Below are positions 5,730 to 64,000 of a stretch of DNA of 64,000 nucleotides, one piece after another. A program made the translations under genes and the position numbers. The notes beneath the pieces are model-generated. The model saw only the letters and a program-made list of their open reading frames with translations. It did not search any database and was not told the DNA's origin. Every line of letters begins with the position of its first letter. Within the stretch, counting starts at the first letter, position 1. The stretch comes from Marinobacter sediminum (GTDB lineage: Bacteria > Pseudomonadota > Gammaproteobacteria > Pseudomonadales > Oleiphilaceae): contig NZ_JAEMQH010000001.1 of assembly GCF_016820575.1 (NCBI RefSeq), positions 620,001 through 684,000 of the forward strand, read 5' to 3'.

Positions 5730-5768
5730 CCTCGACCGCGGGTTCAGTGGTCGAGCCAGCCCGCAGAG

Positions 5769-51175: not shown

Positions 51176-51354
51176 GTCCACCACATTGGAGAACAGCGCG
51201 ACTGCACCTTCGCGACTCAGGCGCCTGCATACGGCCCGATTAAGGTGAGCAGCAAACGGACAGGGACGTTCCGCCAGGTCTTGGCGAGCGCCCCCCGCTC
51301 CGTCCTGCGTACGCGAAGGTTATGGAATTCAACGCGTATTCAGGAGAACACAGC

Positions 51355-54138
51355 ATGTCCACCTCAGCTCTGGCCGAACCCCAGCCCACGGCCCCGGCCA
51401 ACACCGAATCCCTTCAGGTTATTAAACGCAACGGCACCCTCGTTGGCTTCAATCCGTCCAAGATCAGTGTTGCGGTAACCAAAGCGTTCCTCGCCGTGGA
51501 GGGCGACAAGGCCGCCGGTTCCGCCCGTATCAACGACGCCGTGCACCGGGTTACCGAACAGGTGGTGCACGCCATTGGCCGGCGCCTGAAAGCCGGTGGC
51601 AAGGTCCATATCGAAGACATCCAGGACCAGGTGGAACTGGCGCTGATGCGCGCCGAAGAGCAGCGGGTGGCCCGGGCTTATGTTCTGTACCGGGAAGAAC
51701 ACGCCCGCGAACGCGCCCTTCATGCGCCGGTAGAAGCCCATCCACACCTGACCGTGAAGAAAGCGAGTGGCGAGACCGCACCCCTGGACCTGGGCCTGAT
51801 GAAACTGCAGGTGGAGCAGGCGGCCGCTGGTCTGGAAGGCATCGATGGCGACACGTTGGTAGAGGATGCCCTGTCCAACCTGTACGACGGCATTGCCGAG
51901 GCAGACGTGCTCTCGGCCCTGGTGATGACCGCCCGCAGCCGAATTGAACGGGAGCCAGACTACAGCGCCGTCACCGCTCGCTTGTTGCTGGAGCAACTGC
52001 GGCTGCAAACCGTTTCGGCGCTGGATTTATCCACAGAAGTGCCGTTGGCGGAGATTTATCCACAGGCTCTGAGTGCTTTCATTCACGCCGGTATCCGCTA
52101 CGAACTGCTGGACGAAGCCCTGGCCGCCTTTGACCTGGAACGCCTGGGCGCGGCCCTGAAGCCGGAGCGCGACCGCCAGTTCGGCTTCCTCGGCTTGCAG
52201 ACCCTGTACGACCGCTACTTCCTGCACTGGAACAAGGCCCGCCTGGAACTGCCTCAGGTGTTCTTCATGCGCGTGGCCATGGGCCTGGCCCTGCGCGAGG
52301 ACGACCCCAACACCCGCGCCATCGAATTCTATGAGCTGCTGTCCAGCTTCGATTACATGGCCTCCACGCCAACCCTGTTCAACAGCGGTACCCGCCATTC
52401 CCAGTTGTCGTCCTGCTACCTGACCACCGTGGGCGACGACCTGGAAGACATCTACGGCGCCATCCGCGACAACGCCATGCTCTCGAAATGGGCCGGCGGT
52501 CTGGGCAACGATTGGACCCCGGTCCGCTCATTGGGCGCGCACATCAAGGGTACCAATGGCCAGAGCCAGGGTGTGGTGCCGTTTCTGAAAGTGGTGAACG
52601 ACACCGCGGTGGCAGTGAACCAGGGCGGCAAGCGCAAGGGCGCGGTGTGCGCCTATCTGGAAAGCTGGCACCTGGATATCGAAGAGTTCCTGGAACTGCG
52701 CAAGAACACCGGTGACGAGCGCCGCCGCACCCACGACATGAACACCGCGAACTGGGTGCCGGACCTGCTGATCGAACGCATGCGCGAAGACCGGGACTGG
52801 ACCCTGTTCTCACCCAGCGACGTGCCCGATCTGCACGACCTGTACGGCAACGAGTTCCGCAGCCGCTACGAGCACTATGAGGCGCTGGCGGAGCAGGGCA
52901 AGATCGCCCTGTTCAAGAAGATCCCCGCCAAGCAGCTGTGGCGCAAGATGCTGACCGTGCTGTTCGAGACCGGCCACCCCTGGATCACCTTCAAAGACCC
53001 GTGCAACCTGCGCTCGCCCCAGCAACATCGGGGCGTGGTGCACAGCTCCAACCTGTGCACCGAAATCACCCTGAACACCAATGCCGACGAGATCGCGGTG
53101 TGCAACCTGGGTTCGGTGAACCTGGCCGCTCACATCGCCAATGGCGAGCTGGACGTTCAGCGCCTGGAGCGCACCGTTAACACCGCCGTACGCATGCTCG
53201 ACAATGTTATCGACATCAACTTCTATGCTGTGCCTCAGGCCCGCAATTCCAACCTCCAGCACCGCCCGGTCGGCCTGGGCCTGATGGGCTTCCAGGACGC
53301 CCTGTACCAGCTCGGCCTGCCGTACGCCAGCGCCGAGGCGGTGGAGTTCGCGGACCTGGCTATGGAACAGCTCAGCTATTTCGCCATTCGCGCCTCCGCC
53401 ACCCTGGCCGGCGAGCGCGGTGCCTACGACAGCTACGACGGCTCCCTGTGGCACCAGGGCATTCTGCCCATCGATTCCATCAGCTTGCTGAAAGAGGCAC
53501 GACGGGAAGGGGACTTCTCGGTGAACACCGAGGCTCGCCTGGACTGGGCCCCGATTCGCGAGCTGATTGCACAGCACGGCATGCGCAACAGCAACGTGAT
53601 GGCGATCGCGCCCACGGCCACCATCTCCAACATCGTGGGCGTGTCGCAGTCCATCGAGCCGGCGTACCAGAACCTGTTCGTGAAATCGAACCTGTCCGGC
53701 GAGTTCACCGTGGTGAATCCCGCGCTGGTGCGGGACCTGAAGGCCGAAGGCCTGTGGGACAACGTGATGGTCAACGACCTGAAATACTTCGACGGCTCGG
53801 TGCAGCAGATTGACCGTATTCCTACCGAACTCAAGGCCCGCTACGCCACCGCCTTCGAGATCGACGCCCGCTGGTTGGTGGAAGCCGCCGCCCGCCGGCA
53901 GAAATGGCTGGACCAGGCCCAGAGCCTGAACCTGTACATGGCCGAGCCCAGCGGCAAGAAGCTGGATGCCCTGTATCAGCTGGCCTGGGAACGGGGCCTG
54001 AAAACCACCTATTACCTGCGTTCGCTCGGGGCTACCGGGGCAGAAAAGACCGCATCAGCCGCCGCACCGGCGCCAGAGATGGCGCCCCAGCCTCAGGTAT
54101 GCAGCATCGACGACCCAGACTGCGAAGCCTGTCAGTAA
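51355..54138 (+). CDS. nrdA: Ribonucleoside-diphosphate reductase class Ia, alpha subunit
   Basis: 927 residues from the ATG at 51355, which has AGGAGA eight bases upstream; an ATG at 51322 would add 11 residues. An N-terminal ATP-cone (VIKRNGTLVGFNPSKISVAV) gives allosteric activity control. Catalytic cysteines are in QLSSCYLTTVGDD, SSNLCTEITLNTN and IAVCNLGSVNLA, and the C-terminal redox pair is in DDPDCEACQ. It reduces ribonucleoside diphosphates to deoxy forms with NrdB. Two perfect DnaA-box 9-mers lie within the gene (52027-52035 and 52056-52064). The upstream cobalamin riboswitch is an unusual control (see findings). Confidence 0.97.
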   Translation: MSTSALAEPQPTAPANTESLQVIKRNGTLVGFNPSKISVAVTKAFLAVEGDKAAGSARINDAVHRVTEQVVHAIGRRLKAGGKVHIEDIQDQVELALMRAEEQRVARAYVLYREEHARERALHAPVEAHPHLTVKKASGETAPLDLGLMKLQVEQAAAGLEGIDGDTLVEDALSNLYDGIAEADVLSALVMTARSRIEREPDYSAVTARLLLEQLRLQTVSALDLSTEVPLAEIYPQALSAFIHAGIRYELLDEALAAFDLERLGAALKPERDRQFGFLGLQTLYDRYFLHWNKARLELPQVFFMRVAMGLALREDDPNTRAIEFYELLSSFDYMASTPTLFNSGTRHSQLSSCYLTTVGDDLEDIYGAIRDNAMLSKWAGGLGNDWTPVRSLGAHIKGTNGQSQGVVPFLKVVNDTAVAVNQGGKRKGAVCAYLESWHLDIEEFLELRKNTGDERRRTHDMNTANWVPDLLIERMREDRDWTLFSPSDVPDLHDLYGNEFRSRYEHYEALAEQGKIALFKKIPAKQLWRKMLTVLFETGHPWITFKDPCNLRSPQQHRGVVHSSNLCTEITLNTNADEIAVCNLGSVNLAAHIANGELDVQRLERTVNTAVRMLDNVIDINFYAVPQARNSNLQHRPVGLGLMGFQDALYQLGLPYASAEAVEFADLAMEQLSYFAIRASATLAGERGAYDSYDGSLWHQGILPIDSISLLKEARREGDFSVNTEARLDWAPIRELIAQHGMRNSNVMAIAPTATISNIVGVSQSIEPAYQNLFVKSNLSGEFTVVNPALVRDLKAEGLWDNVMVNDLKYFDGSVQQIDRIPTELKARYATAFEIDARWLVEAAARRQKWLDQAQSLNLYMAEPSGKKLDALYQLAWERGLKTTYYLRSLGATGAEKTASAAAPAPEMAPQPQVCSIDDPDCEACQ

Positions 54139-54168: not shown

Positions 54169-55233
54169 ATGCTCGACTGGGACGACGAACCCAAAACCCA
54201 GGCCACAGCCAGCGCCGGTGACCGCACCGGCCCGGCGCCGGTGAACGTGGACGACAAGCGCGTGATCAACGGCGACACCGACGTTAACCAGTTGGCGCCG
54301 TTCAAGTACCCCTGGGCCTGGGAGTACTTCATGAACGCCAACAAGAACCACTGGACGCCGCTGGACGTGAACATGGCGCAAGACGTTCACGACTACCACC
54401 ACCGGCTGACCGCCCCGGAGAAGCACGTGTACGAGAACGTGCTGGCCTACCTCACCACCTCCGACATCCTGGCCATGCGCAACATCGGCCTGGCGGTGAT
54501 GGAGAAGATGAGCGCGCCGGAGCTGCAAATCTACCAGGCCCGGCAGGTGTATGAGGAGGCCATGCACACCTGGGCCTATCAGCACTGCATCGAAACCCTG
54601 AACCTGGATCAGAGCGAGATCTACAACCGCTACCGGGTGGTGCCGGCGATCAACGGCAAGATCCAGATTGCCAACCGCCGGCTGGACGCCGCCATGCGCC
54701 CGGACATGAACTTGCGTAACCGCGACGACCTGCAGGAATTCATCATGTCCTACCTGTTCTTTGCGGCGGTGTTCGAGGGCACCTGGTTCTACAACGGCTT
54801 CAGCCCGATCTTCGCCCTCCAGCGCCGCGGCCTGATGCGCGGCACCGGCGAGCAGCTGCAGTACATCTTGCGGGACGAGGCCATGCACTTCTCCTTCGGC
54901 CTGAAGGTGGTGAACCAGATCGTGGAGGAGGAGAACATCACCTTCGACCCGAAAGCCGTACGCGAGATGTGGGACGAATCGGAGGCCGCCGAAAGCGCCT
55001 ACGCCAAGTACATCCTGCGCGACCCCATCCTCGGCTACTCCGCGGAGTACCACAGCGAGCAGTTCCGCTTCGTGGCCAACCGTCGCGCCCGCACAGTCGG
55101 CCTGGACGAGCCCTTCCCGGGCGCGAGGAATGTCTCGCCCTGGCTGGACGAGCAGGCCACCATGCGCAAGGAGAAGAACTTCTTCGAGACCCGGGTGATT
55201 GAGTATCAGACTGGGGCTCAGTTGGAGTGGTAA
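54169..55233 (+). CDS. nrdB: Ribonucleoside-diphosphate reductase class Ia, beta subunit
   Basis: 354 residues. Iron ligands and the radical tyrosine are arranged as in class Ia NrdB (YEEAMHTWAYQHCIETL: Glu, His three on, Tyr four further), with more ligands in FAAVFEGTWF and LRDEAMHFSFGLK. The tyrosine is present, so a classic diferric-tyrosyl radical enzyme is expected. CAGGAGGCAACATC is a strong ribosome binding site. The gene ends at a hairpin, after which the cassette array begins. Confidence 0.97.
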   Translation: MLDWDDEPKTQATASAGDRTGPAPVNVDDKRVINGDTDVNQLAPFKYPWAWEYFMNANKNHWTPLDVNMAQDVHDYHHRLTAPEKHVYENVLAYLTTSDILAMRNIGLAVMEKMSAPELQIYQARQVYEEAMHTWAYQHCIETLNLDQSEIYNRYRVVPAINGKIQIANRRLDAAMRPDMNLRNRDDLQEFIMSYLFFAAVFEGTWFYNGFSPIFALQRRGLMRGTGEQLQYILRDEAMHFSFGLKVVNQIVEEENITFDPKAVREMWDESEAAESAYAKYILRDPILGYSAEYHSEQFRFVANRRARTVGLDEPFPGARNVSPWLDEQATMRKEKNFFETRVIEYQTGAQLEW

Positions 55234-55241
55234 ATGCCGAA

Positions 55242-55281
55242 GGCCCGGAGTTCAGCGACAAATGACGCAAAACTCCGGGCC
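55242..55281 (+). terminator. Hairpin terminator of nrdAB
   Basis: GGCCCGGAGTT (55242-55252) pairs perfectly with AACTCCGGGCC (55271-55281) eight bases after the nrdB stop. The 18-base loop is long and the T-run is missing, but position and stem strength suggest the end of the nrd transcript. Confidence 0.6.
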
Positions 55282-55282
55282 T

Positions 55283-55507
55283 GAATCATTAACCTACTGA
55301 AATTATGCGAATTTTTTACTGATTTATTAGGAATAGACGTCACGCCTATCTTGGAAATAAGCGGCAAGTGACGCTTATTTCCACTTCCCCGCATTGTGAG
55401 CTATGCTGCAATGCATTGATTTTTATATATTTAAGATAGGAAGAGATGAAAACCTGCTGGGGAATAGGCGCGGCGGGGATATACGTCATTTGTCGTTGAA
55501 TTAGCTG
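55283..55507. other. Left boundary of the cassette array, with hairpin
   Basis: No gene. AT-rich. GGAAATAAGCG (55353-55363) and CGCTTATTTCC (55372-55382) form a perfect 11-bp hairpin with an 8-base loop. The region ends in GCTGTTAAAAC, whose GTTAAAA (55507-55513) matches the attC R' core GTTRRRY and is the likely left end of the first cassette. In a complete integron, attI and a divergent integrase gene would be here; neither is recognisable. Confidence 0.5.
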
Positions 55508-55532
55508 TTAAAACGAGAAGGAAGAGGTATCA

Positions 55533-56486
55533 GTGAACGAGCCGAACAATTTTGTTAGGACTCTCATCGTACTCTTTGCTGTTGCACTAGCAGCAATGGT
55601 ATTCGTTAGCTTTTCGTTCTCTGAGCCCCCGTATGAGATCTCAGGCGGCATTCTAACTGTTCTTTTTTTGATCGCTATTCTGGTGCTGTCAGAGTCTTTT
55701 AATAACTTGAGTCTTGGGAAGGTGCTGAGCCTTAGCCGGGAAGTCGAGAAGAAGCAGTCCGAGAACACCAGAGTAAAAGAAGAGAATAAAGAGTTAAGGC
55801 ATGAACTCTTTAAAATTGTTTCAAATGTTCAACAGTCTCAAGTTAACAATACCTACAATGCCCCATCCGATGAGTGGCTTAAGCTGCTGGGCGTGGTTAA
55901 GGCGAAAGACTCTGAGCCCGACGAGGATCAAAAGGAGCAAGAGGAAAATCAGCAAGTTGTTAATTATGTTGCTGAGCAAGCCCGCAGGAGGGAGCAGAAT
56001 CAGGCTAGGCACAAGCGCTGGAAAGTTTCGGAGGATCTGGCGATTGAAAAGTATGCAGAAAGTCTGTCAGTCCCAGATTCAGAAGTAATTAAAGGAGCTG
56101 TTTTCTCACAAGCTTTTGATGAGATTGATCCGATCATGAGCCGAAGGATAAATTTTGACGGCTATATCAAAGGCGCCAACCTTGAAAGGTTCATCGAAGT
56201 TCGCCCTAAATCTTCATTTTCTCCGATGTTCCAGGAGAGATTATATGTAATGCTCAACAAAATATTCCTTTACAGGAAAGCCAAAGGAATTTCTGCAGAG
56301 CTTATATTGCTGATCGTTGAGTTTGAGGGCGATGAAGAGGATCAGCATCAGACTTGGAGGCTGGAGAAATTTTACGAGTATTTTCAACCGGCTATATCAA
56401 ACCGGCTCTTGAAGGTTGAGCATTTAAAATTGACAGAGGAAGAGGTGGTCGAGGCTGAGAGTCGTGGCCAACAGAGGCTGTTTTAA
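55533..56486 (+). CDS. Cassette 1: membrane-anchored coiled-coil protein of unknown function
   Basis: 317 residues from a GTG with GGAAGAGG upstream. Two membrane helices (about 9-29 and 38-56), then a charged coiled coil (about 65-105, KQSENTRVKEENKELRHEL), an acidic/glutamine-rich linker (about 125-155), and a C-terminal globular domain (about 170-317). The last contains FDGYIKGANLERFIEVRPK, an Asp then Glu-X-Arg spacing faintly like a PD-(D/E)XK nuclease core, with EEDQHQTWRLEKFYEYFQ after it. I do not recognise the family; the nuclease idea is tentative. The stop codon merges with the R'' box of attC1. Confidence 0.75.
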   Translation: MNEPNNFVRTLIVLFAVALAAMVFVSFSFSEPPYEISGGILTVLFLIAILVLSESFNNLSLGKVLSLSREVEKKQSENTRVKEENKELRHELFKIVSNVQQSQVNNTYNAPSDEWLKLLGVVKAKDSEPDEDQKEQEENQQVVNYVAEQARRREQNQARHKRWKVSEDLAIEKYAESLSVPDSEVIKGAVFSQAFDEIDPIMSRRINFDGYIKGANLERFIEVRPKSSFSPMFQERLYVMLNKIFLYRKAKGISAELILLIVEFEGDEEDQHQTWRLEKFYEYFQPAISNRLLKVEHLKLTEEEVVEAESRGQQRLF

Positions 56487-56565
56487 CAAGGCCAGTCACG
56501 GCGACGTCTACTACATTGCGGCTTCGCCTTCATTTCGTAGACGCGCGTGCTGAGCGGCGTTATAA
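56481..56565 (+). repeat. attC1
   Basis: R'' TTTTAAC at 56481-56487 (overlapping the stop of cassette 1) and R' GTTATAA at 56559-56565. Inner arms GTCTAC/GTAGAC and GGCTTCGCC form the imperfect hairpin. It closely resembles attC4 (shared GCGACGNCTAC-T-CATTGCG core). Confidence 0.85.
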
Positions 56566-56942
56566 GCCAAGGCTCCGGTAATTTTTTGGTGGTTGGGTGC
56601 ACGGGCCTTGGCGGAAAATTAGGTGATAATTTCTGGTTTCGCGTCATGGCCAAGGCCAGCAAACTCGCCGTCCAATCTGGAAGCCAGTATTGGCTTCTTT
56701 CGGGTTATCGGCAGCGTGCCCAGGTTGTGGGGCTGTTCGCCGAAAGTTTGGAGTAAGCGGGGTAGGTTGGTGGTGTGTATCGGTGCCGGACCGCGAGCAG
56801 GTGCGGGGCTTCTTTGGAGTACGCATGGAAGTTGTGGAGTTGATCGGAGACCACCGGGTGACCGGCTTCTAACCAATGCATTAAATACGTTCCGGGCCGA
56901 TGGCCCTCCACCGGACGGCTTTTAGCCGCCGTTTATGCAGGC
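56559..56942 (+). other. Cassette 2: apparently ORF-less
   Basis: About 384 bases between the R' boxes of attC1 and attC2. No convincing gene on either strand: a plus-strand frame from a GTG inside attC1 to 56756, or its shorter version from the ATG at 56646 (36 codons), lacks a ribosome binding site, and the opposite frame shows repetitive proline/arginine composition. It shares three short blocks with the cassette at 59984-60267 (see findings). It could hold a small RNA or promoter, or be a decayed gene. Confidence 0.55.
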
Positions 56943-56949
56943 GTTAAAA
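56867..56949 (+). repeat. attC2
   Basis: R'' TTCTAAC at 56867-56873, R' GTTAAAA at 56943-56949. Centre GTTCCGGGCCGATGGCCC then CCACCGGACGG, with arms GCATTAAA/TTTATGC. Same subfamily as attC6, attC7 and attC9. Confidence 0.88.
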
Positions 56950-56965
56950 GGAGAAACATGCGCTC

Positions 56966-57361
56966 ATGAGAGATTTCGGCGATGAACAGGTGAAAGGAAT
57001 GGATCGCTTCATTCCCACCCGCCGGAGCGCTGTGTTGCTGGTGGCTTTGATCACCGCGCCTCCGTCCCTTTTCGCATTCTTAGTGCAAAAACATGACTTT
57101 GTTTTGGGCGATCTTACGGAGGCCTCCCGGCTTCCAACTATAGCTGCTGTCACGCTGGGCCTTGCCTTAGTTATCGCCGTTACACTTTGCGTTGAGTTGG
57201 CAGTTGCGCTGAATCATTCGAAACACCGGAAAATTAAGCATGTCAGCAACGAGCACTCGCAAATGTCGTTTAAGTGGCTTGTCAGCAACGCTTCCACTCG
57301 ACATTACCTGTTTATCGCTGCGGTATTCACGCTGGGGGCGGCTCTTGGTCACTACTTTTAA
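56966..57361 (+). CDS. Cassette 3: small membrane protein of unknown function
   Basis: 131 residues. About three helices (23-42 SAVLLVALITAPPSLFAFLV; 58-80; 112-130) with a basic loop KHRKIKHVSNEHSQM between the second and third. AAAAGGAGAAAC upstream is placed best for an ATG at 56958, which encodes only Met-Arg-Ser before a stop that overlaps this start (ATGA). The tripeptide reading frame may help ribosomes re-start at 56966. No family recognised. Confidence 0.65.
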   Translation: MRDFGDEQVKGMDRFIPTRRSAVLLVALITAPPSLFAFLVQKHDFVLGDLTEASRLPTIAAVTLGLALVIAVTLCVELAVALNHSKHRKIKHVSNEHSQMSFKWLVSNASTRHYLFIAAVFTLGAALGHYF

Positions 57362-57433
57362 CAATTCGCGTCAGTACGCGGCCTTTGGCCGCCGGACGTC
57401 CCTGACGGGCCGCCGCTGCGCTTCGCGTTAGTG
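57356..57433 (+). repeat. attC3
   Basis: R'' TTTTAAC at 57356-57362 (overlapping the stop of cassette 3), R' GTTAGTG at 57427-57433. Centre GTACGCGGCCTTTGGCCGCC then GGACG. Same subfamily as attC8. Confidence 0.85.
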
Positions 57434-57457
57434 ATCGGGGTTTTACAGGAGCTCTGG

Positions 57458-57931
57458 ATGAGCCGCTATGTTCTGTCAAAAAAAGCAACCCAAAAGGCTT
57501 CGAACTCACTGAAGCCTCTTTTTTCATTTGTTTTTATAGTGTTGATGCTGCTTTTGATGTTTATCAGGTCTGGCTCAGAAGATTGGGGTGAATATTCAAA
57601 CTGGCAGACAATGGTTGTAGATGGAAAAAGAAGGACGCCGCAAGGTTCTTTCTATATTGATAGTGATGGCACTGATTACCCTATCGCTCTTCCCAATTCG
57701 AATGCGAGAACGTTTTGGTACCAAGTGGATTATTTTGATGAAGTTCAGGTACGTTTAACAGAGGGCAGAAGAATAGCCGCGCTCAGGTTCAGAGAAGAAG
57801 AAATATATGGTATCGATGAGTTTGAGGAAGCTGCGGAGCGGACGTATTCAGCCCTGACCGACAAGATGATTCAGATTTCGATTATTTACTCAATAATAAT
57901 GATTTTTTTGATAGTTAAAGAGCGCAGGTAG
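57458..57931 (+). CDS. Cassette 4: membrane protein of unknown function
   Basis: 157 residues from the ATG at 57458 (ACAGGAGCTCTGG upstream); a GTG at 57431 would overlap attC3. One helix near the start (FSFVFIVLMLLLMFI), a central soluble domain of about 95 residues with WGEYSNWQTMVVDGKRRTPQ and FWYQVDYFDEVQVRL, and a second helix at the C-terminal end (IISIIYSIIMIFLI-like). This layout suggests a periplasmic domain held by two helices. No family recognised. Confidence 0.65.
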   Translation: MSRYVLSKKATQKASNSLKPLFSFVFIVLMLLLMFIRSGSEDWGEYSNWQTMVVDGKRRTPQGSFYIDSDGTDYPIALPNSNARTFWYQVDYFDEVQVRLTEGRRIAALRFREEEIYGIDEFEEAAERTYSALTDKMIQISIIYSIIMIFLIVKERR

Positions 57932-57995
57932 GTGTTTTTAGCGTTTAAGCTGCCGGAGCAATCGGTGCCATGGGTAAGGCCTACTTACAGCCTAC

Positions 57996-58079
57996 CACTA
58001 ACCAGTGCAGGCACAGCGACGCCTACTTCATTGCGCCTTCGGCTCCATTCCGCAGGCGCGCATGCTGCAAGCGTTATGC
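57996..58079 (+). repeat. attC4
   Basis: R'' ACTAAC ending at 58002, R' GTTATGC at 58073-58079. Centre GCGACGCCTACTTCATTGCG and CGCAGGCGCGC, close to attC1. Confidence 0.85.
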
Positions 58080-58102
58080 ACTACAGATCAAGGTTTTAAT
58101 AA

Positions 58103-59083
58103 ATGCCAACAATAACAAAGTGTCTATATAAGTCTCATGTGATAGATGTCGAACGAGCACTAGGGATCAAGAAAGATTCACTAGAGTCTGGGAGTTCGGA
58201 TGCTGATTTCACTTGTATTGAGTGTGGGGCTCCAGTTAGGCCTCACCGTGACGGAGGCCATGCCTCTGCTCATTTTGAGCATTTGGCAAGAAACCCTGAA
58301 TGCTCGCTAAGTCATCGAGGGAAGGGAGCAGACGAACAAGCTGCGCTAGAGCCTGTTGAATCCATTAATGAAGCACAAGTCAACGCTCAAGCCTTTTCTG
58401 GGGTTGGAAAGGCAGCAAAAACAGTAGCAAGCGAAAATTTCAATCGCTTTTTCCACTGGTATTATTTCCCGGAGTTGGATCTATTCGCGCCGAGTAAATT
58501 TATTGGATACAAGAACACCAATCTTGATAATTACCAAGGAAACGGAACGGGAACTGAGACTCAAAGGGTCCTTGGTCAATGGTTTTCCAAAGTTGAAGCA
58601 GGCACAGAGAGGCATAAAGAGCTGTTTCGCAAGCTAACTGACTTCGCTGAAAGCATCGGTAAAACTATAAGTAAGAAAACGTTTGAAGGAACAGGAGGAA
58701 TTTACATCCTTTCTGGTAAATATGCGGACCAGGACTTTCCTGATGAAATTGCGAAAAGTTCCTTTAAAGAGGGTGCCACTAAGCAAGTGAGGGTCAATGC
58801 TTACGAGCGAAGCAATCAAGCACGTGCGGAATGTATTGAATATTATGGGGCAAAGTGTTGCGTCTGTGATTTTGAATTCCAGTCCCTCTATGGCAAGGAT
58901 TTAGGCGCTGGTTTCATACATGTACATCATTTGGTCGACATTTCGCAAATTGGCAAGGAGTACGAGGTAGACCCAATCGCTGACCTCAGACCTGTTTGCC
59001 CCAATTGCCATGCGATGCTCCATAAAAGAAAACCGGCCATGCACCCTGAGGAACTCCGTAAAATTGTTAAAGAAGGTGCATAA
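58103..59083 (+). CDS. Cassette 5: HNH endonuclease (McrA-like) with N-terminal zinc-finger-like region
   Basis: 326 residues. The C-terminal HNH nuclease (about 240-310) has KCCVCDFEF (zinc pair 1), HVHHLVDIS (catalytic histidines about 275-276), and DLRPVCPNCHAMLH (zinc pair 2 with the HNH asparagine about 301). An N-terminal cluster, CIECGAPVRPH with downstream H, H and C (38-67), looks like another metal-binding module. The middle (about 110-235) is unassigned. HNH proteins of this kind are often modification-dependent restriction enzymes or anti-phage nucleases, so a defence role is plausible but unproven. It is visibly AT-rich. The ATG lacks a strong ribosome binding site. Confidence 0.85.
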   Translation: MPTITKCLYKSHVIDVERALGIKKDSLESGSSDADFTCIECGAPVRPHRDGGHASAHFEHLARNPECSLSHRGKGADEQAALEPVESINEAQVNAQAFSGVGKAAKTVASENFNRFFHWYYFPELDLFAPSKFIGYKNTNLDNYQGNGTGTETQRVLGQWFSKVEAGTERHKELFRKLTDFAESIGKTISKKTFEGTGGIYILSGKYADQDFPDEIAKSSFKEGATKQVRVNAYERSNQARAECIEYYGAKCCVCDFEFQSLYGKDLGAGFIHVHHLVDISQIGKEYEVDPIADLRPVCPNCHAMLHKRKPAMHPEELRKIVKEGA

Positions 59084-59153
59084 CCAATGGCGTCAGTCGG
59101 ACTGGTTTGTTCCACTCCGTTCCACAAACCAGCCGCTGCGCCCAGCGTTACAA
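59078..59153 (+). repeat. attC5
   Basis: R'' GCATAAC at 59078-59084 (overlapping the HNH stop), R' GTTACAA at 59147-59153. Inner arms CTGGTTTGTTCCA and TCCACAAACCAG give a strong hairpin. It differs in sequence from all other sites in the array. Confidence 0.85.
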
Positions 59154-59175
59154 GGCCAACTGAAAGGGAGTTCAA

Positions 59176-59481
59176 GTGGTTACCTGCTACCTAAAGTACG
59201 TCATAGATCCCTATAAAGCCGCCGAGTTCGAGCGCTATTCCAAGATGTGGATACCTCTGGTCCAGAGGTTCGGCGGTCAGCACCATGGGTATTTCTTGCC
59301 TTCTGAGGGCGCCAACAATATCGCCGTCGCACTATTCACGTTTGAGTCTCTGGCCGCTTATGAAAAGTACCGTGAGGCCTCGTTCAAAGACTCGGATTGC
59401 CAGGCCGCCTTCAAATACGCTGAAGAAACTCGTTGTGTACTAAGCTGTGAACGCAGTTTTATGAGGCCAGTATTTGAGTGA
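59176..59481 (+). CDS. Cassette 6: NIPSNAP family protein
   Basis: 101 residues from a GTG (AAAGGGAG upstream). MVTCYLKYVIDPYKAAEFER, WIPLVQRFGGQHHGYFLPSE, GANNIAVALFTFESLAAYEK and TRCVLSCERSFMRPV follow the bacterial NIPSNAP pattern, a dimeric alpha-beta barrel (ferredoxin-like) fold. Biochemical role unknown. Homologues are also common as ordinary chromosomal genes, suggesting capture of a host gene into a cassette. Codon use is closer to the core than in its neighbours. Confidence 0.85.
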   Translation: MVTCYLKYVIDPYKAAEFERYSKMWIPLVQRFGGQHHGYFLPSEGANNIAVALFTFESLAAYEKYREASFKDSDCQAAFKYAEETRCVLSCERSFMRPVFE

Positions 59482-59483
59482 GC

Positions 59484-59568
59484 TTGTAACAAGTGCATTA
59501 AGTCTGTTCCGGCCCGATGGGCCTCCACCGGACGCCCTGGTCGGGCGCCGCTTATGCAAGCGTTAAGT
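59484..59568 (+). repeat. attC6
   Basis: R'' TTGTAAC ending at 59490, R' GTTAAGT at 59562-59568. Arms GTGCATTAA and CTTATGCA; centre GTTCCGGCCCGATGGGCC then CCACCGGACG. Confidence 0.88.
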
Positions 59569-59578
59569 GTGATTTGCC

Positions 59579-59890
59579 ATGAAAGTAGTCGATCATGAAG
59601 ATCAGATGTGGTTTCTTTTTGAGTACCAAGGAGCCTTGTTTTTAGATGCCAGCTGTAATCATAGCTTTCTAGGCTACACCTATATGATTGAGCTAAATGA
59701 GCAGGAGTTGACTGCCTACGAAAGCGGTGGTCATCGGTACCTTTCGGAGCTCGCGCACGATATTCATTACTCGGCTCCAATAGTCAAAGGCAGCAACTCG
59801 ATTTATAAGGGTCGTGACGTTACTAAGCAGTACTCGGAGCTTGTGAGTGCAGCTGTTCAGCAATGGCGAGAGCAGCGAAGTGGCCATTAA
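59579..59890 (+). CDS. Cassette 7: small soluble protein of unknown function
   Basis: 103 residues, no membrane segment. WFLFEYQGALFLDASCNHSF at the start looks like beta strands, followed by an acidic middle (IELNEQELTAYESGG) and a helical C-terminus (YSELVSAAVQQWREQR). Family not recognised; small acidic proteins like this are common in cassettes. The stop lies just before attC7. Confidence 0.65.
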   Translation: MKVVDHEDQMWFLFEYQGALFLDASCNHSFLGYTYMIELNEQELTAYESGGHRYLSELAHDIHYSAPIVKGSNSIYKGRDVTKQYSELVSAAVQQWREQRSGH

Positions 59891-59892
59891 AC

Positions 59893-59990
59893 ACTTAACA
59901 AACTGTTGTAGTTCGTTCCGGGCCTGCGGCCCTACACCGGACGCCCATTTCGCTGCGCTGCATGGCCGCCGCTAAACAAGGGCGTTAATG
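59893..59990 (+). repeat. attC7
   Basis: R'' ACTTAAC at 59893-59899, R' GTTAATG at 59984-59990. The longest site in the array (about 98 bases), with an extra CATTTCGCTGCGCTGCATGG segment in its centre. Confidence 0.82.
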
Positions 59991-60267
59991 GCCAAGGCTT
60001 CAGAAGGATTTAGGCAGTAGAGCAGGGAGTTGCTCGCGAATTATCACTCCAGTTCAACTCTTCTCCCCGCAAAACACTGCAAAATCCGCGAGTTTCGTGT
60101 TCTGGTTCCTCGCGCCATGGGCTAGGTTGGGTGCAAGCTTCACCGCAAAGGGCATTTGAGTTCGGGTGCCAGGGATAAACCGCCGGGTAACCGGCCACTA
60201 ACAAGTCGCAGCAGTACGCGGGCCGATGGCCGCCGGACGCCCCGGTCGGGGCGCCGCTGTGCTTAGC
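59984..60267 (+). other. Cassette 8: apparently ORF-less
   Basis: About 285 bases between the R' boxes of attC7 and attC8. No plus-strand frame of useful length. The minus-strand frame over it (60010-60381) runs through attC8 into the next gene and is not credible. It shares blocks with the cassette at 56559-56942. Confidence 0.6.
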
Positions 60268-60274
60268 GTTATGT
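60196..60274 (+). repeat. attC8
   Basis: R'' CACTAAC at 60196-60202, R' GTTATGT at 60268-60274. Centre GTACGCGGGCCGATGGCCGC, then GGACGCCCCGGTCGGGGCGC. Same subfamily as attC3. Confidence 0.87.
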
Positions 60275-60287
60275 GTAAGGAGTTCTA

Positions 60288-60989
60288 ATGGACGGCCCTT
60301 GGTCGGAAGGCCCCAAAGAATTGCTCCAACACGCGGTTGATCATTTGTCGCTGGATGGCGACTTTGACCGGCGGATTGCAATGATCAGTATCGACAATGC
60401 CGTAGAGCTCATGATCAAAACTTATCTCGGACTTCCGAAGCGAAAAATTAAAGGCGACCGCCCATCAAGGAAGGAGCTCGAAGATTCGAGCAATTCTTTT
60501 CCTGGTTTGCTCGATCTCATTGAGAAATATGCGGAGGAAAAGCTTACCGGCGTGAGTTTGGACGAGATCGAGTGGTATCACAGAATTCGAAACCAGTTAT
60601 ATCACTCGGGGAACGGAATCACTGTCGAAGCCGCCCGGGTGCAAACGTACCTCTCTCTTGCAAAGACGCTGTTTCAAAATCTTTTTGAATCCGAGATCGA
60701 ACTGTCTGCTGAGAGCCAAATACAGCAGAAGCTGGGCATTTTCCTTGGCAAGTGGGGTATGTTTGAAAAGGAGCTCATGGAGAAAGCGCATGAGATGGAT
60801 CTCCCTGATCGAAGAGCTCCGGCACTGTTCTTTTACAAGGGCGACCGAGCCGCTAAGGAGCTTTGGCAGGCCACCCGTGCTTTTAGAAATACCGCAGTAC
60901 ACAAGCTTGAAACATTGAAGGCAGGGGATTTCAATCAACCGATCAAGGACATTGATACCTTGATGAGCTATGCCCGAAGTTACACATAA
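60288..60989 (+). CDS. Cassette 9: protein with two HEPN-like RX4H motifs
   Basis: 233 residues, largely alpha-helical, AAGGAG before the ATG. Two copies of the HEPN active-site pattern R-X4-H: RNQLYH (101-106, in YHRIRNQLYHSG) and RNTAVH (200-205, in RAFRNTAVHKLE). The first half (FDRRIAMISIDNAVELMIKT) is typical of HEPN helices that pack around the site. HEPN proteins are often RNases of toxin-antitoxin or abortive-infection systems, though some act only as dimer scaffolds. No antitoxin (MNT) partner is in the cassette. Lies directly before the CBASS cassette. Confidence 0.7.
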   Translation: MDGPWSEGPKELLQHAVDHLSLDGDFDRRIAMISIDNAVELMIKTYLGLPKRKIKGDRPSRKELEDSSNSFPGLLDLIEKYAEEKLTGVSLDEIEWYHRIRNQLYHSGNGITVEAARVQTYLSLAKTLFQNLFESEIELSAESQIQQKLGIFLGKWGMFEKELMEKAHEMDLPDRRAPALFFYKGDRAAKELWQATRAFRNTAVHKLETLKAGDFNQPIKDIDTLMSYARSYT

Positions 60990-61067
60990 CCAGGCCATTA
61001 AGTTTGTTCCCGGCCTAGCGGCCGTCCACCGGACGGCTTTCAGCCGCCGCTTATGGCAGCGTTATGA
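60984..61067 (+). repeat. attC9
   Basis: R'' ACATAAC at 60984-60990 (overlapping the stop of cassette 9), R' GTTATGA at 61061-61067. Centre GTTCCCGGCCTAGCGGCCG, then CCACCGGACGG, arms GCCATTAAG and CTTATGGC. This is the left border of the CBASS cassette. Confidence 0.88.
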
Positions 61068-61110
61068 GTACTTGTAAGCAGAGTAAGTGATTACAAAAGG
61101 AGAATAGTTA

Positions 61111-61707
61111 ATGCATGATTATGCGATATTTGGCCATGATCGCGCTGGTATAGGTCGTTGGCTCGGATTGATAGCCATACTTGTTGCAGGCGGTGTGGCT
61201 CAACTTGCCAGCCTGTTGTCTAGCATGACTGGATGGGAAGCTTTTACGAAAGGTTCAGTTACTGTCGGCGTAGTATATTTTGGATTGCATTGGCTCTTTA
61301 ATAAATGGATTTGGAAAGTTCAGTTTTTCAATATTCCTGACTTGAACGGCGTGTGGAAAGTTGATGGCCGCACTCTGGATGAGGAAGGAAACAATAAATA
61401 CGAGTGGCCAGCTGAGTTAGATATAGAACAAAACTGGAAGCAAATTTCTATAAATATAAAAACTAGTAAGAGCCAGAGTGAAAGTTACACTGCAACTCTT
61501 TTCAAAAGAAGCGGAGTTCGTGGTGGTTGGGTTTTGAGTTATAGCTACAAGAATGAGCCTAATCTAGATCAGTCGCATGAATTAAGCTCCCACAAAGGCT
61601 TTTGCGAAATTGAATTTGATAATGCCCTAAAGTCTGCGGAAGGTACATATTTTAATAGTGGCGGAAGAAAAACCTACGGTTTGATGAGTCTTGAGAGAGG
61701 ACAATAA
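61111..61707 (+). CDS. cap15: CBASS effector, Cap15-like (2TM plus beta-barrel)
   Basis: 198 residues. Two N-terminal membrane helices (about 16-37 and 47-66; IGRWLGLIAILVAGGVAQLA, VTVGVVYFGLHWLFNKW) are followed by a beta-rich domain (about 72-198) that starts IPDLNGVWKVDGRTLDE and runs through IEQNWKQISINIKTSKSQSE, SGVRGGWVLSYSYKNEP and ends GGRKTYGLMSLERG. This is the layout of the SMODS-associated 2TM beta-strand-rich effector, Cap15. In studied cases it binds the cyclic nucleotide in the barrel, oligomerises and breaks the inner membrane, killing infected cells. AAAAGGAGAATAGTTA gives a strong ribosome binding site. The TAA stop shares its last base with the start of the cyclase gene (TAATG), so translation is coupled. 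Confidence 0.85.
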   Translation: MHDYAIFGHDRAGIGRWLGLIAILVAGGVAQLASLLSSMTGWEAFTKGSVTVGVVYFGLHWLFNKWIWKVQFFNIPDLNGVWKVDGRTLDEEGNNKYEWPAELDIEQNWKQISINIKTSKSQSESYTATLFKRSGVRGGWVLSYSYKNEPNLDQSHELSSHKGFCEIEFDNALKSAEGTYFNSGGRKTYGLMSLERGQ

Positions 61708-62810
61708 TGATCAATTTCGATGCGAGGCTTAAAAGGCTTAAAGACAGACGCCAAGGTACAAGAGAGTTAGTTCTTTTAGAGAAAGGTTTTCATTCTTGGG
61801 ATACAGGAGACTACCGGATTAGAGAGTCCTATGAGGAGCTTTCGGAGAGTCCTGGAGTTCGTTATGCCATTGGGTCAATGTCCGCTGTAAACCCTGAATC
61901 CACAAAAGTTTCCATCAATGAAGGAAATCGCGTTTCAGATACATTGATAAGCATGTTAAAAACAGAAGGAATTGGCGCTACCAAAAGAATTCAGGGATCG
62001 GTAGCGCTAGACATTCATATTGAAGGTCATTCTGATGTGGATATGCTTATAATTTGTGAAGACACTATTCTGGTGCAAACACCAAAACTTGATGGGTCTA
62101 CTTGCTACGCTGCAGACAACCGTCCCATGGTTGAGATAATTGCAGAGCTGAGGAATAAATCAGAGCAGAAATTAACAACCAGATATTATGAGGCAGATGT
62201 TGATTGTACAAACAGCAAATCAATTTCCCTTGTGGGTGGAAGTTTAAAGCGTAAAGTGGATGTAGTGCCAAGTTGTTGGTATCACACGCATGACTATCAA
62301 AGGAGCCGCCAAGAACGAGATATTGGCATAAAGATATATCACAAGAAAGAGCATCGTTTATTAGGAAACTTTCCATTCAAACACATTGCCAGGGTGAACG
62401 ATAAAGATACTCAGTACTCGGGCAATCTAAAAAAAGTAATTAGGTTGCTGAAAAACTTGGTGGCTGACATGCCCGATTATAAAAAAGGGAAAGCAAAGAA
62501 GCTGACGAGCTATGATCTAGCGGGGATTGCTTATCATATGGACCAGAGACTGAATGTTCCTAGCTATATGTCACTGGCACTTGTAGAGCAAACAAGAGAC
62601 TTTCTTAGTTTACTAAATGCTTCTGAAACCTACCGGAATACTCTTACGGTTCCAGACGACACAAGAAAGATTTTTGATGATGAATCAAAAACAGAAGCTC
62701 TAGAAATTATAACTAAGGAGGTTGAGGATTTGGCTTATTCGATTTTCAGAGAGTTACGTCCTCTATCACAGGTCTACGATGGAAGTGTAATTAAATCTAA
62801 GGTCATATAA
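61707..62810 (+). CDS. CBASS nucleotidyltransferase (CD-NTase)
   Basis: 367 residues. The polymerase-beta-type site is visible: GS at 97-98 in RIQGSVALDIHIEGHSDVDM, the metal-binding aspartates D110 and D112 in that motif, and a third aspartate D185 in LKRKVDVVPSCW. Helical segments follow (KKVIRLLKNLVADMPDYKKG and on), as in the OAS-like/SMODS fold. All catalytic residues appear present. It would make a cyclic oligonucleotide on phage infection to switch on the Cap15 protein encoded just upstream. The product and clade (CdnE-like is my guess) cannot be read from the sequence. No Cap2/Cap3 or HORMA/TRIP13 genes accompany it, so this is a minimal type I CBASS. Confidence 0.85.
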   Translation: MINFDARLKRLKDRRQGTRELVLLEKGFHSWDTGDYRIRESYEELSESPGVRYAIGSMSAVNPESTKVSINEGNRVSDTLISMLKTEGIGATKRIQGSVALDIHIEGHSDVDMLIICEDTILVQTPKLDGSTCYAADNRPMVEIIAELRNKSEQKLTTRYYEADVDCTNSKSISLVGGSLKRKVDVVPSCWYHTHDYQRSRQERDIGIKIYHKKEHRLLGNFPFKHIARVNDKDTQYSGNLKKVIRLLKNLVADMPDYKKGKAKKLTSYDLAGIAYHMDQRLNVPSYMSLALVEQTRDFLSLLNASETYRNTLTVPDDTRKIFDDESKTEALEIITKEVEDLAYSIFRELRPLSQVYDGSVIKSKVI

Positions 62811-62823
62811 TGTGTCAGGCCAC

Positions 62824-62865
62824 TCATAACAATTCAAAGCACTCGGACGTCGCTACGCTCCGCTG
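62824..62865 (+). repeat. attC10, truncated
   Basis: R'' TCATAAC at 62824-62830, followed by AATTCAAAGC and the arm GGACGTCGCTACGCTCCGC typical of an attC left half. The right half and R' box are missing: the sequence departs at about 62865. Confidence 0.75.
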
Positions 62866-62904
62866 ATCTTGCACCACTTTAGTGGACGGTCATTTACCGG
62901 ACAC

Positions 62905-62965
62905 TGGACTTACCCCGGTCTACTAGACACTCCTAGCCTATGATTAGAGCATAGGAGGAACTGTC
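62905..62965. mobile_element. Possible IS3-family end remnant
   Basis: TGGACTTACCCCGGTCTAC followed by TAGACACTCC and then, about 20 bases on, AGGAGGAACTGTCATG resembles the left terminal repeat plus the orfA leader of IS3-family elements. No transposase follows. The inverted pair CCTATG/CATAGG (62937-62942, 62950-62955) sits inside. A remnant that truncated attC10 is the simplest reading; identification is by pattern only. Confidence 0.35.
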
Positions 62966-62984
62966 ATGTGGGCATTTCCAGCAT

Positions 62985-63113
62985 GTGAGGCACAATCCGC
63001 CCTGGCAGAATCGACCTTGGGTGGAGAAGTTAGAAACACGGAATGAAATGCTCGGACATCTTCTTGACTGCAAGAAGTGCGAAGAAGGCGCTCCGCCAGA
63101 TGAGAAAGTTTAA
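62985..63113 (+). CDS. Possible small cysteine-containing protein (42 residues)
   Basis: A short frame from the GTG at 62985 reads MRHNPPWQNRPWVEKLETRN then EMLGHLLDCKKCEEGAPPDE and ends in KV. The CKKC pair, the WVEKLETRNEMLGHLL helix and the acidic end look protein-like. The best ribosome binding site (GGAGG at 62954-62958) serves an ATG at 62966 in another frame that ends after 26 codons, so a frameshift or loss of the original start is likely. The 42-codon frame stays open upstream to 62955 without an ATG. Confidence 0.3.
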   Translation: MRHNPPWQNRPWVEKLETRNEMLGHLLDCKKCEEGAPPDEKV

Positions 63114-63172
63114 ATTAGGCTGTAGCGGGTCATGTCCGCCTAACAAAGGTCGGCAGAGGGAATCGTGGGGGC
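63114..63172. other. Right boundary of the array, possible degenerate att box
   Basis: GCCTAAC at 63137-63143 is a canonical R'' box, and TTAGGC at about 63115-63120 is its inverted partner, giving TTAGGC...GCCTAA around GCGGGTCATGTCCGC. This may be a worn attC or simply a hairpin terminator for the leftward gene at 63173. Confidence 0.35.
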
Positions 63173-64000
63173 TTAAAAAATCGGCTCGCCGGTCGCTTTA
63201 ACCGCATAGAACAGGCAGTCACTCTTCGCAATCACTGGGTTGGTGGTAATCATAAAGGCCTTGATGGCTTGTGCGGGGTAGATCTGGCCATCCTTCACTC
63301 GCAGAATCTGCTCCATGGTTTCGGCCCGGTTGTGGCCGATCGCGGTGAGTATGCTGAGACCTTTTTTCCCCACCCAACCCAGGGGTTCATCCGGGGACAC
63401 AGTTCCGAAATTCCGCCGTTCGATGTCGGGAGGAAAGGTGAGGTCGGCCTGGCCGGTGGGCGCCAGGCGGTATTCGATGGTCGCGTCCGGCGCCAGTTCC
63501 ACCCGAATCGGATTGCGCAGTACGTTAACGTCCCACTCCGCTTTCTCCAGTGACAACACATCGGCTTTTGAGGTGTACCGCACGAGTCCCTCGTAGGCCA
63601 GTTGGTGCGCCTGTTCTTCCTGGGAGCCGCCACACTCGATGGTTACCGTGGGTACCTCCTGTTCTGAATACTCCATCAACGCACCCAGGCGAAGGTCCGT
63701 CATCACGAGCCTATTGGTGAACAGGGAGGCCAGCGCCTGGTGAGCGGCGTCGCTGGTGATGGTGACGGCGAAGGCCGGGCCGGTGCCTGAGGTGTTGTGC
63801 ACGTCCAGCAGACATTCCGGTTTTACTCTCTGAAGCTCGGCCAGCAGGGCCTGGGCAATAGCCCCTTCCTCGCCCTTGAAGGGTTGCCGGAAGCACCGGT
63901 TGAGGTCGAGCCCGTGCGGTAGCTGGCGGTGTGACAGCGCGGGAGGGATTTTCGCAGGATAGACGCCGCCGAGGAGAAACAGCATGTTCACCTCCGGCGT
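63173..64000 (-). CDS. AstE/AspA-type M14 zinc hydrolase (truncated at window end)
   Basis: The minus-strand frame is open to the window edge (about 275 residues visible), so the N-terminus lies outside. A GTG at 63991 is not taken as the start because the usual zinc-binding H-X-X-E motif should lie upstream. Visible pieces are LDLNRCFRQPF, ECLLDVHNTSGTGPAFAVTI (third zinc histidine in DVHN) and PTVTIECGGSQEEQAH (catalytic glutamate). This pattern fits the succinylglutamate desuccinylase/aspartoacylase family. Substrate unknown. It is core-like in composition and marks the right flank of the cassette array. Confidence 0.8.
   Translation of the reverse strand, partial: TPEVNMLFLLGGVYPAKIPPALSHRQLPHGLDLNRCFRQPFKGEEGAIAQALLAELQRVKPECLLDVHNTSGTGPAFAVTITSDAAHQALASLFTNRLVMTDLRLGALMEYSEQEVPTVTIECGGSQEEQAHQLAYEGLVRYTSKADVLSLEKAEWDVNVLRNPIRVELAPDATIEYRLAPTGQADLTFPPDIERRNFGTVSPDEPLGWVGKKGLSILTAIGHNRAETMEQILRVKDGQIYPAQAIKAFMITTNPVIAKSDCLFYAVKATGEPIF

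Follow-up and report, generated by a model that had tools for sequence, protein, structure and literature searches.

A gene at positions 60288–60989 (+ strand) of the window, the whole stretch of 64,000 nucleotides of Marinobacter sediminum DNA analysed here, encodes a protein of 233 aa in which, judging by its sequence, two HEPN domains of different ancestry appear to be joined in one chain. We hold with moderate confidence that it is a mobile cassette for a stand-alone two-HEPN ribonuclease of mixed ancestry, whose two motifs would meet in a composite site and whose RNA cutting would be triggered by phage.

Two conserved motifs in an all-helical protein

What identifies this protein? Its open reading frame and translation, aligned here among 29 members, start five bases downstream of a ribosome-binding-like AAGGAG read from the sequence (60277–60282, +). 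The protein contains exactly two RX4H motifs, R101-N-Q-L-Y-H106 (60588–60605, +) and R200-N-T-A-V-H205 (60885–60902, +), both of the form RNx3H; the pair had been reported by the first-pass annotation and proves conserved across the alignment. At least two RX4H arise by chance in 4.2% of 20,000 shuffles of the protein and at least two RNx3H in 0.01%, and the main evidence that the motifs are real is, at the level of sequence, their conservation among members rather than these odds. Counting the window protein and spanning bacteria and archaea, R101, N102, H106 and R200 are invariant in 29 of 29 aligned members, as are Y105 within the first motif and, elsewhere, D36, N37, E40, E95, W96, H98, N109, G110 and T112; H205 is found in 28 and N201 in 27. 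The polar residue that the HEPN superfamily has right after the arginine, mostly N, D or H, is accordingly represented by N102 (29/29) and N201 (27/29). One member, at locus L019, has lost the N and H of the second motif, with L in place of H, and keeps the first. At that locus (L019:4995–6008) the degenerate second motif is followed by a C-terminal extension with a CPLCGQPI motif, and the Rad50 zinc hook model is matched by one aligned member, which we take to be this one.

The two halves differ in how fast they change. Mean column identity is 67% in the N-terminal domain (29 sequences) versus 30% in the C-terminal domain (27 sequences); the 27-member alignment, which also served for the C-terminal model and scans, leaves out L019, which lacks the motif H, and L026. 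In it, R200 and H205 are the only invariant columns, and among 26 members below 80% identity the same two lead, followed by N201, E160 and W156 in a tie. In five distant members that were measured, identity in the C-terminal domain is 20–27%. For L002 and L003, the sole pair unsaturated at synonymous sites, dN/dS is 0.044; the five other pairs tried were all saturated there.

An AlphaFold2 model built with 23 sequences is confident and all-helical (mean pLDDT 89.9), in agreement with the helical 233-residue protein first proposed, and its pTM of 0.82 suggests a defined packing of the two predicted domains. The motif helices, 91–106 and 187–205, are topologically equivalent in the model; each ends with its motif and is followed by a further helix (115–133 and 212–231). 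The two domains fill the 233 aa, with no room in the model for a guide-binding lobe or a third domain.

The N-terminal HEPN domain

From the predicted model, the N-terminal domain (about residues 1–136; 60288–60695, +), delimited by AlphaFold2 and by its VIA-align matches, is a HEPN-like fold with the full motif set, E40-x3-K44 and R101-N-x3-H106. It consists of helices 4–22, 25–48, 91–106 and 115–133 and an insert at 61–81. In the HEPN plan, many families, though not all, carry an acidic residue on helix 2, typically as Ex3[KR] (PMC3710099), and the domain matches this plan in its insert between helices 2 and 3, in the Ex3K motif E40–K44 on helix 2 (60405–60419, +; E40 in 29/29 and K44 in 27/29 members) and in the RX4H motif that ends helix 3. 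The best VIA-align match was 2hsb (AF0298; Z 13.0, rmsd 2.9, 119 residues), followed by HepT 6m6u (Z 11.5, rmsd 2.5, 116 residues), Csm6 6tug (Z 10.2, rmsd 3.2, 129 residues) and YutE 1ylm (Z 9.9, rmsd 3.5, 121 residues). HEPN proteins (2hsb, HepT, YutE and five Csm6 entries) make up eight of the 13 listed rows with Z of at least 8, the remainder being unrelated or undetermined; as chance alone can give helical bundles a Z of 13, this run of HEPN names outweighs the Z value. The top match, 2hsb, belongs to a HEPN family usually devoid of the motif H (PMC3710099).

Sequence models reach this domain faintly. No Pfam HEPN model matched it in any of the 29 members; ExoD (Pfam) was weakly matched by seven of 29 (best E 0.0068), and the window protein weakly matches the NCBIfam Csm6 model over residues 61–133 (E 0.002) and a CARF-HEPN model over residues 32–134 (E 0.013). 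Foldseek returned no match for the full-length model at E 0.001 in PDB or BFVD. By hhalign, the N-terminal profile has relatives in the tails of GHKL-ATPase proteins (97%) and in the L046 group (98%), and the GHKL relative at L033 carries HATPase_c_3 (E 2.5e-7). A GHKL/HATPase protein carries this N-terminal HEPN type at its C-terminus at L033:1510–3102, where the protein was scanned, and, by sequence inspection, at L053:850–1884.

The C-terminal HEPN domain

By family profile, the fast-evolving C-terminal half (residues 137–233; 60696–60986, +) is a trimmed HepT/DUF4145-like HEPN domain. In hhalign comparisons, its profile matched four HepT proteins at 96% (E 1.6e-9 for the HepT pair), a fifth HepT at 82%, a HEPN domain fused to an AHJR-type REase at 97% and a Swt1-HEPN protein, in its C-part, at 98%. 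Three stretches without known HEPN scored 0.3–1.0% and a stretch with Swt1-type HEPN 2.1%; the same profile reached 26% with the N-type HEPN of the GHKL group and 8% with that of the L046 group. These test proteins, L035, L040, L041 and L056 among them, came from the family-profile searches themselves; the HEPN labels of L034, L037, L038, L050, L052 and L055 are independent, via Pfam. At E up to 0.1, DUF4145 was matched by 14 of the 27 C-terminal domains (best 1.5e-4), RiboL-PSP-HEPN by 12 (best 2.5e-6) and HepT-like by 11 (best 1.2e-4). At the same threshold the window's C-terminal half alone matched no HEPN model, and the whole window protein matched DUF4145 at E 0.14, below threshold. L037:592–1893 and L038:1273–2697 present another tandem arrangement, a single chain in which a HepT-like stretch comes after a Swt1-like HEPN.

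Structure adds less here. Folded alone, residues 137–233 give a pLDDT of 91.8, with three long helices and one short one. HepT fits this model with Z 7.4, rmsd 3.4 and 94 of 97 residues, in a range where designed bundles reach 8.1, and since the alignment begins at HepT residue 31, the domain apparently has no counterpart of the first HEPN core helix and, in the model, seems trimmed. The conserved acidic residue E160 (60765–60767, +) lies on the first helix of the domain and is kept in 27 of 29 members (24 of 26 non-redundant); four residues after it the window protein has M, not the K/R of Ex3[KR]. A plain Foldseek search with the C-terminal model found no significant match at E 0.001, and the family-profile search of the PDB gave rows at chance level, HepT 6m6w standing second (E 0.39, over 156–222).

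The proposal of a two-domain HEPN protein is thus borne out for the N-terminal half by fold and for the C-terminal half by family profile, while the C-terminal fold match is tied with unrelated bundles. Of the two observations that the first-pass annotation had named as speaking against it, a missing four-helix HEPN core and RX4H residues that are not conserved, neither was made. Since the halves fall in different HEPN subfamilies, they appear to be two unlike HEPN domains joined. They have no likeness beyond the motif region by profile comparison. An internal duplication was considered and rejected; the N- and C-terminal profiles align over 30 columns with probabilities of 3.3% and 5.7%.

An integron cassette beside CBASS

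Judged from the DNA, the gene is an integron cassette, its reading frame bounded by attC-like sites within an array. The site 5′ of the gene (60197–60277, −) and the site 3′ of it, which overlaps the stop codon (60985–61070, −), were found by site alignment and score 70.7 and 77 bits, both belonging to the training set of the model. Nine such sites in one orientation, with an invariant TAACGC, punctuate 56.4–61.1 kb. As single-stranded DNA, two of the four sites folded beat their shuffles (60985, z −3.9; 59485, z −2.5), and two do not stand out (60197, z −1.1; 59893, z −1.4). The nine window sites served to train the attC model, whose matches elsewhere are therefore the independent ones; it also finds sites in L004 and L018. 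A plain GTTRRRY scan gave no excess (84 matches versus a shuffle average of 103). None of the genome's seven TIGR02249 matches lies in the window, which thus has no intI; the sole match over the cut-off, at 426 bits, is on another contig (G000:C4:1349213). The stretch 56484–61070 can be described as a cassette array without an integrase of its own. The GC content of the gene is 0.489, against 0.629 for the reading frame at 51322–54138, taken from its sequence as the large ribonucleotide reductase subunit. Elsewhere in the array, 58103–59083 is an HNH endonuclease cassette (PF01844; CoiA_N weak, below cut-off) and 59176–59481 a NIPSNAP-domain cassette.

The direct neighbours of the gene in the window are a 103-aa reading frame without a family match and Cap15. 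Cap15 (61111–61707; PF18153, E 1.1e-38) and a CD-NTase (61707–62810; PADLOC cyclase, E 9.9e-137) form a CBASS cassette (61111–62810, +), which follows directly, as had been noted beforehand. We rejected a functional CBASS link as a general feature: when Cap15 and part of the CD-NTase gene were compared with the flanking reading frames of L002–L028 and L030–L035, no relative of either flanked the other loci. From these comparisons, the adjoining CBASS reflects array order, not a recurrent link. There is no MNT gene beside the HEPN gene in the window. Among the best 20 of 53 direct-repeat families in 55200–63200, the attC-like sites are the sole regular repeat, with no CRISPR-like array, and 55000–64000 has no Rfam match up to E 1; a structured RNA partner was not found there.

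A sparse and mobile family

Where else does the gene occur? Relatives were found on 23 genome contigs, four Leptospira plasmids, whose copies are annotated as hypothetical, and two viral contigs; the 23 genome-contig loci were retrieved with exact peptide seeds and are hence close relatives. By record title they come from Beta- and Gammaproteobacteria, deltaproteobacteria, Desulfobulbaceae, Bacteroidota, Brocadia, Nitrospira, Anaerolineaceae, Patescibacteria (partial, at a contig end), archaea and the Leptospira plasmids, many of them as MAGs, so that the family spans about eight to ten phyla by these titles, several from MAGs; two nearly identical archaeal MAG sequences (L009 and L011) may reflect a binning error. 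Whole-genome searches gave matches in 7 of 398 genomes of the window's own phylum (four full-length, its own included). In the phylum of L005, 8 of 395 genomes matched, with the seed as the sole full-length case, and in that of L010 13 of 294, with two full-length cases counting the seed; the remaining matches span just one half of the protein. The gene is absent from all 36 other genomes of the same genus, and tblastn found no match in 50,697 phage genome records.

Several features indicate, at the level of sequence, that the gene is mobile: its place in an integron, attC sites beside the L004 and L018 copies, plasmids and viral contigs. The attC matches flank the gene at 4916–4989 (E 2e-4) and 5698–5781 (only E 0.33) in L004, and at 4878–4966 (E 9e-4) and 5710–5798 (E 0.005) in L018. 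An intI over the cut-off is present in the L018 genome, on another contig, and absent from the L004 genome. DNA similarity to the three closest relatives, L002–L004, sets in no more than 22 bases from the start codon and ends by the stop codon, one attC-like stretch excepted. A tyrosine recombinase lies 1.2 kb (L005) and 0.8 kb (L006) upstream of the gene; it need not be an integron integrase, because it falls below the IntI cut-off and like matches occur in all 14 control genomes. A truncated family gene (L024:4980–5351) lies ~1.4 kb from a TniQ gene; beside it lies what looks like a HipA/HipB-type pair.

The survey of gene neighbourhoods that had been proposed leaves the gene standing by itself, without a recurrent partner, and the CBASS adjacency did not recur. 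Among L002–L028 and L030–L035, with compared flanks of about 1.5 to 8 kb ending at contig ends, no cluster of flanking reading frames is common to more than two loci, and neither an MNT gene nor any widely shared neighbour was found, in keeping with the view that the usual MNT antitoxin is missing. The longer flanks of L057–L059 have an AAA gene beside the family gene in three loci. Neighbours chosen by eye, not sampled, include a SIR2-TPR protein (L009), a Schlafen AlbA_2 protein (L028) and HepT (L010), as well as a phage-type integrase and AAA_25 at L020, a locus that we read from its sequence as a satellite-like island. The cassette before L018 encodes a protein matching PD-T7-4 (E 1.6e-8). 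The defence context of these neighbours is suggestive, as far as sequence goes. Related DUF4145 proteins adjoin the family gene in two unrelated genomes, at L018:4163–4879, the one that matches PD-T7-4, and at L008:5732–6358. On a Leptospira plasmid, an annotated Shedu SduA-domain protein (L026:15401–16225) lies ~7 kb from the family gene.

An exchange slot between AAA ATPase and DUF6638 genes

Of seven genomes in one genus, two carry the family gene flanked on one side by an AAA ATPase gene and on the other by a DUF6638 gene. The other five slots hold putAbiC (E 9e-14), an RNase_T-BRCT protein that is also PADLOC candidate PDC-S48 (E 2e-31), an HNH protein, a protein related to it but shorter, and one whose only match is a sub-threshold PDDEXK_7 hit. 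In the 33 loci that have both flanking genes, these lie −4 to 1289 bases apart; the family gene occupies three of these slots (L057, L068 and L072, all chosen beforehand as carriers) and putAbiC-like genes three (one by Pfam, two at 43–45% identity to it), and none of the 25 slot loci from other genera holds the family gene. Along 116 residues, the HNH slot protein of L073 shares 46% identity with the C-terminal part of the window HNH cassette; as both the family gene and HNH occur in the slot, two cassettes of the window array have relatives in the same remote place. The loci L068–L074, L078–L104 and L057 together present a variable cargo slot in which HEPN, putAbiC, RNase_T-BRCT, HNH and other genes replace one another. 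From these sequences, the slot may be an undescribed defence hotspot.

Comparison with known HEPN systems

HEPN RNases typically pair as two chains, and Cas13 is the best-known one-chain case. Like Cas13, whose HEPN pair is intramolecular (PMC12165695), the window protein has two HEPN domains in one chain, here both with RX4H. It differs in size (233 aa versus 429–577 for Cas13an) and in the unlikeness of its halves (3–6% profile probability), whereas a fusion of two closely related HEPN genes has been proposed as the origin of Cas13 (PMC12165695); neither a CRISPR array (among the best 20 of 53 repeat families) nor a guide-binding lobe was found here. That study also counts twelve AlphaFold-database clusters, as yet uncharacterised, that contain an intramolecular HEPN dimer; two are Cas13an, and our family may be one of the ten others. 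HEPN dyads within one protein are further described for Csx1/MJ1666 and Swt1, the latter listed as inactive (PMC3710099). In Csx1 the dyad is accompanied by a Rossmann-fold domain and in Swt1 by a PIN domain; the window protein lacks any third domain and retains both motifs. In CoCoNuT type III-A, CnuE likewise has two HEPN domains in one effector, but belongs to a multi-gene GTPase system with wHTH and has RxH as its second motif, as against two full RX4H here (PMC11090510). One-chain HEPN pairs are therefore already known from Cas13, the Csx1/Swt1 dyads and CnuE.

The single domains have their own relatives. The N-terminal HEPN is close to Csm6/Csx1 in fold and weakly so in sequence (the 6tug and NCBIfam matches given above); unlike these, the window protein lacks a CARF sensor domain, and the best 20 of 53 repeat families include none that is CRISPR-like. 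HepT is a profile relative of the C-terminal domain (96%), and its fold resembles that of the N-terminal domain (Z 11.5). In MNT-HepT there is an MNT partner and a Tyr after the motif His; the window protein has neither, and two HEPN domains per chain. That tyrosine, two residues after the motif histidine, is the AMPylation site of HepT; in the family alignments it is absent from both motifs. Vpc_cass2 (3jrt), like our protein, is a HEPN-type protein encoded as an integron cassette (PMC3710099, PMC3548836), but is a single four-helix bundle with a crystal dimer and a helix 4 disrupted by a loop (PMC3548836). Neither phmmer nor the family profile matched 3jrt in PDB at E up to 10; the absence of 3jrt and Cas13 from the VIA-align match lists excludes nothing.

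Among HEPN proteins in defence, Tha is the nearest tested analogue in behaviour that we found. It is an anti-phage HEPN RNase of S. aureus prophages, activated by phage tail proteins (PMC11087260), and shares with the window protein an RNx3H motif and a place on mobile DNA; Tha shows Abi-like defence. Tha-1, at 301 aa, has a single C-terminal HEPN and an unrecognised N-terminal part, as against two HEPN domains here. The C-terminal profile hits Tha-1 and Tha-2 weakly (14.9 and 16.3 bits in a seven-protein set; hhalign 7% and 3%, not significant). In the DefensePredictor study, HEPN domains occur in four of 31 validated systems (PMC13092281); one, DS-11 (CBS + HEPN), is a one-protein HEPN defence system whose CBS domain is absent from the window protein, and the NCBIfam DS11 model was matched by one of 23 members, at E 0.098 only. 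Integron-cassette HEPN proteins have been proposed as dormancy-inducing RNases (PMC3710099).

As first suspected, the family is not yet named: no Pfam, NCBIfam or PADLOC model covers it. Among the titles and abstract openings listed for the literature on HEPN, DUF4145, integron cassettes and anti-phage defence (for two HEPN domains, the best 20 of 127) we found no description of it, the family having no name to search by.

Proposed mechanism and alternatives

How might such a protein act? In the reading we favour, the two motifs would form one composite, metal-independent RNase site within the chain, as those of Cas13 or HEPN homodimers do; a single intrachain site fits because E, R, N and H are kept in both halves while the second half drifts. 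The enzyme would be inactive in the uninfected cell, and phage infection would switch it on, possibly via the fast-evolving C-terminal half. It would then cut cellular RNA, perhaps a conserved species such as tRNA or rRNA, which would suit the frozen N-terminal half, and the cutting would stop growth and phage spread without a separate antitoxin. The slow half might thus correspond to a fixed RNA target, and the drifting half to a phage-facing sensor. The putative abortive-infection role is read from context: the family is sparse, its carriers are mobile, and its exchange slot otherwise holds putAbiC, the RNase_T-BRCT/PADLOC candidate and HNH. Against defence counts that the N-terminal half is, by sequence, unusually conserved for a defence toxin.

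Would the N-terminal domain suffice? A homodimer through this domain, in the manner of Csm6, could make the RNase site, leaving the C-terminal domain as a regulator or RNA-binding part. We judge this unlikely but the strongest of the competitors: the N-terminal domain is complete in its motifs, is far better conserved (67% versus 30% mean column identity) and resembles Csm6, and L019 lost the second motif and kept the first. Hard to explain without catalysis, however, is the retention of R200 in 29 and H205 in 28 of 29 members while C-terminal identity falls to 20–27% in the five distant members measured. Further from our expectations lies a HEPN pair without catalytic function, binding RNA or nucleotides and serving as a regulator outside defence. 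Some motif-less HEPN domains probably act as non-catalytic RNA binders (PMC3710099), and the extreme conservation of the N-terminal domain would suit such a role; the persistence of R, the following N, H and the acidic E in both domains argues the other way, and we give this reading very little chance.

The gene could also encode the toxin of a toxin-antitoxin system with an unrecognised antitoxin (a protein, an RNA or an antisense gene), whose role would be to stabilise cassettes or plasmids, not to defend against phage. Integron arrays often hold toxin-antitoxin cassettes, a point in its favour, HEPN domains are essential parts of many such systems (PMC3710099), and Tha has an overlapping antisense inhibitor gene (PMC11087260). 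This we think improbable, given that the compared loci share no widespread neighbour, that DNA similarity to L002–L004 is confined to the gene and one attC-like stretch, that the HepT-type tyrosine is absent from both motifs and that no Rfam match was found in 55000–64000 up to E 1. A Tha-like antisense inhibitor was rejected as a candidate: the 133-aa antisense reading frame of the window is closed in five relatives checked, where its longest stretch is 26–73 codons.

Returning to the composite-site ribonuclease, we offer a bolder version tentatively, and doubt it more than we trust it: a guide-less Cas13-like core made of two unlike HEPN domains would act as a one-gene, antitoxin-free Abi system, spread through bacteria and archaea by integrons, plasmids, satellites and exchange slots and among the smallest self-contained heterodimeric HEPN enzymes, with the N-terminal half fixing the RNA target and the C-terminal half completing the site and sensing infection. 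If both half-sites are present, the 233-aa protein would offer a very small system for testing an intramolecular HEPN site, and possibly a compact RNase tool. Its pairing of a slow half with a fast one yields a clear prediction as to which half would meet the cell and which the phage.
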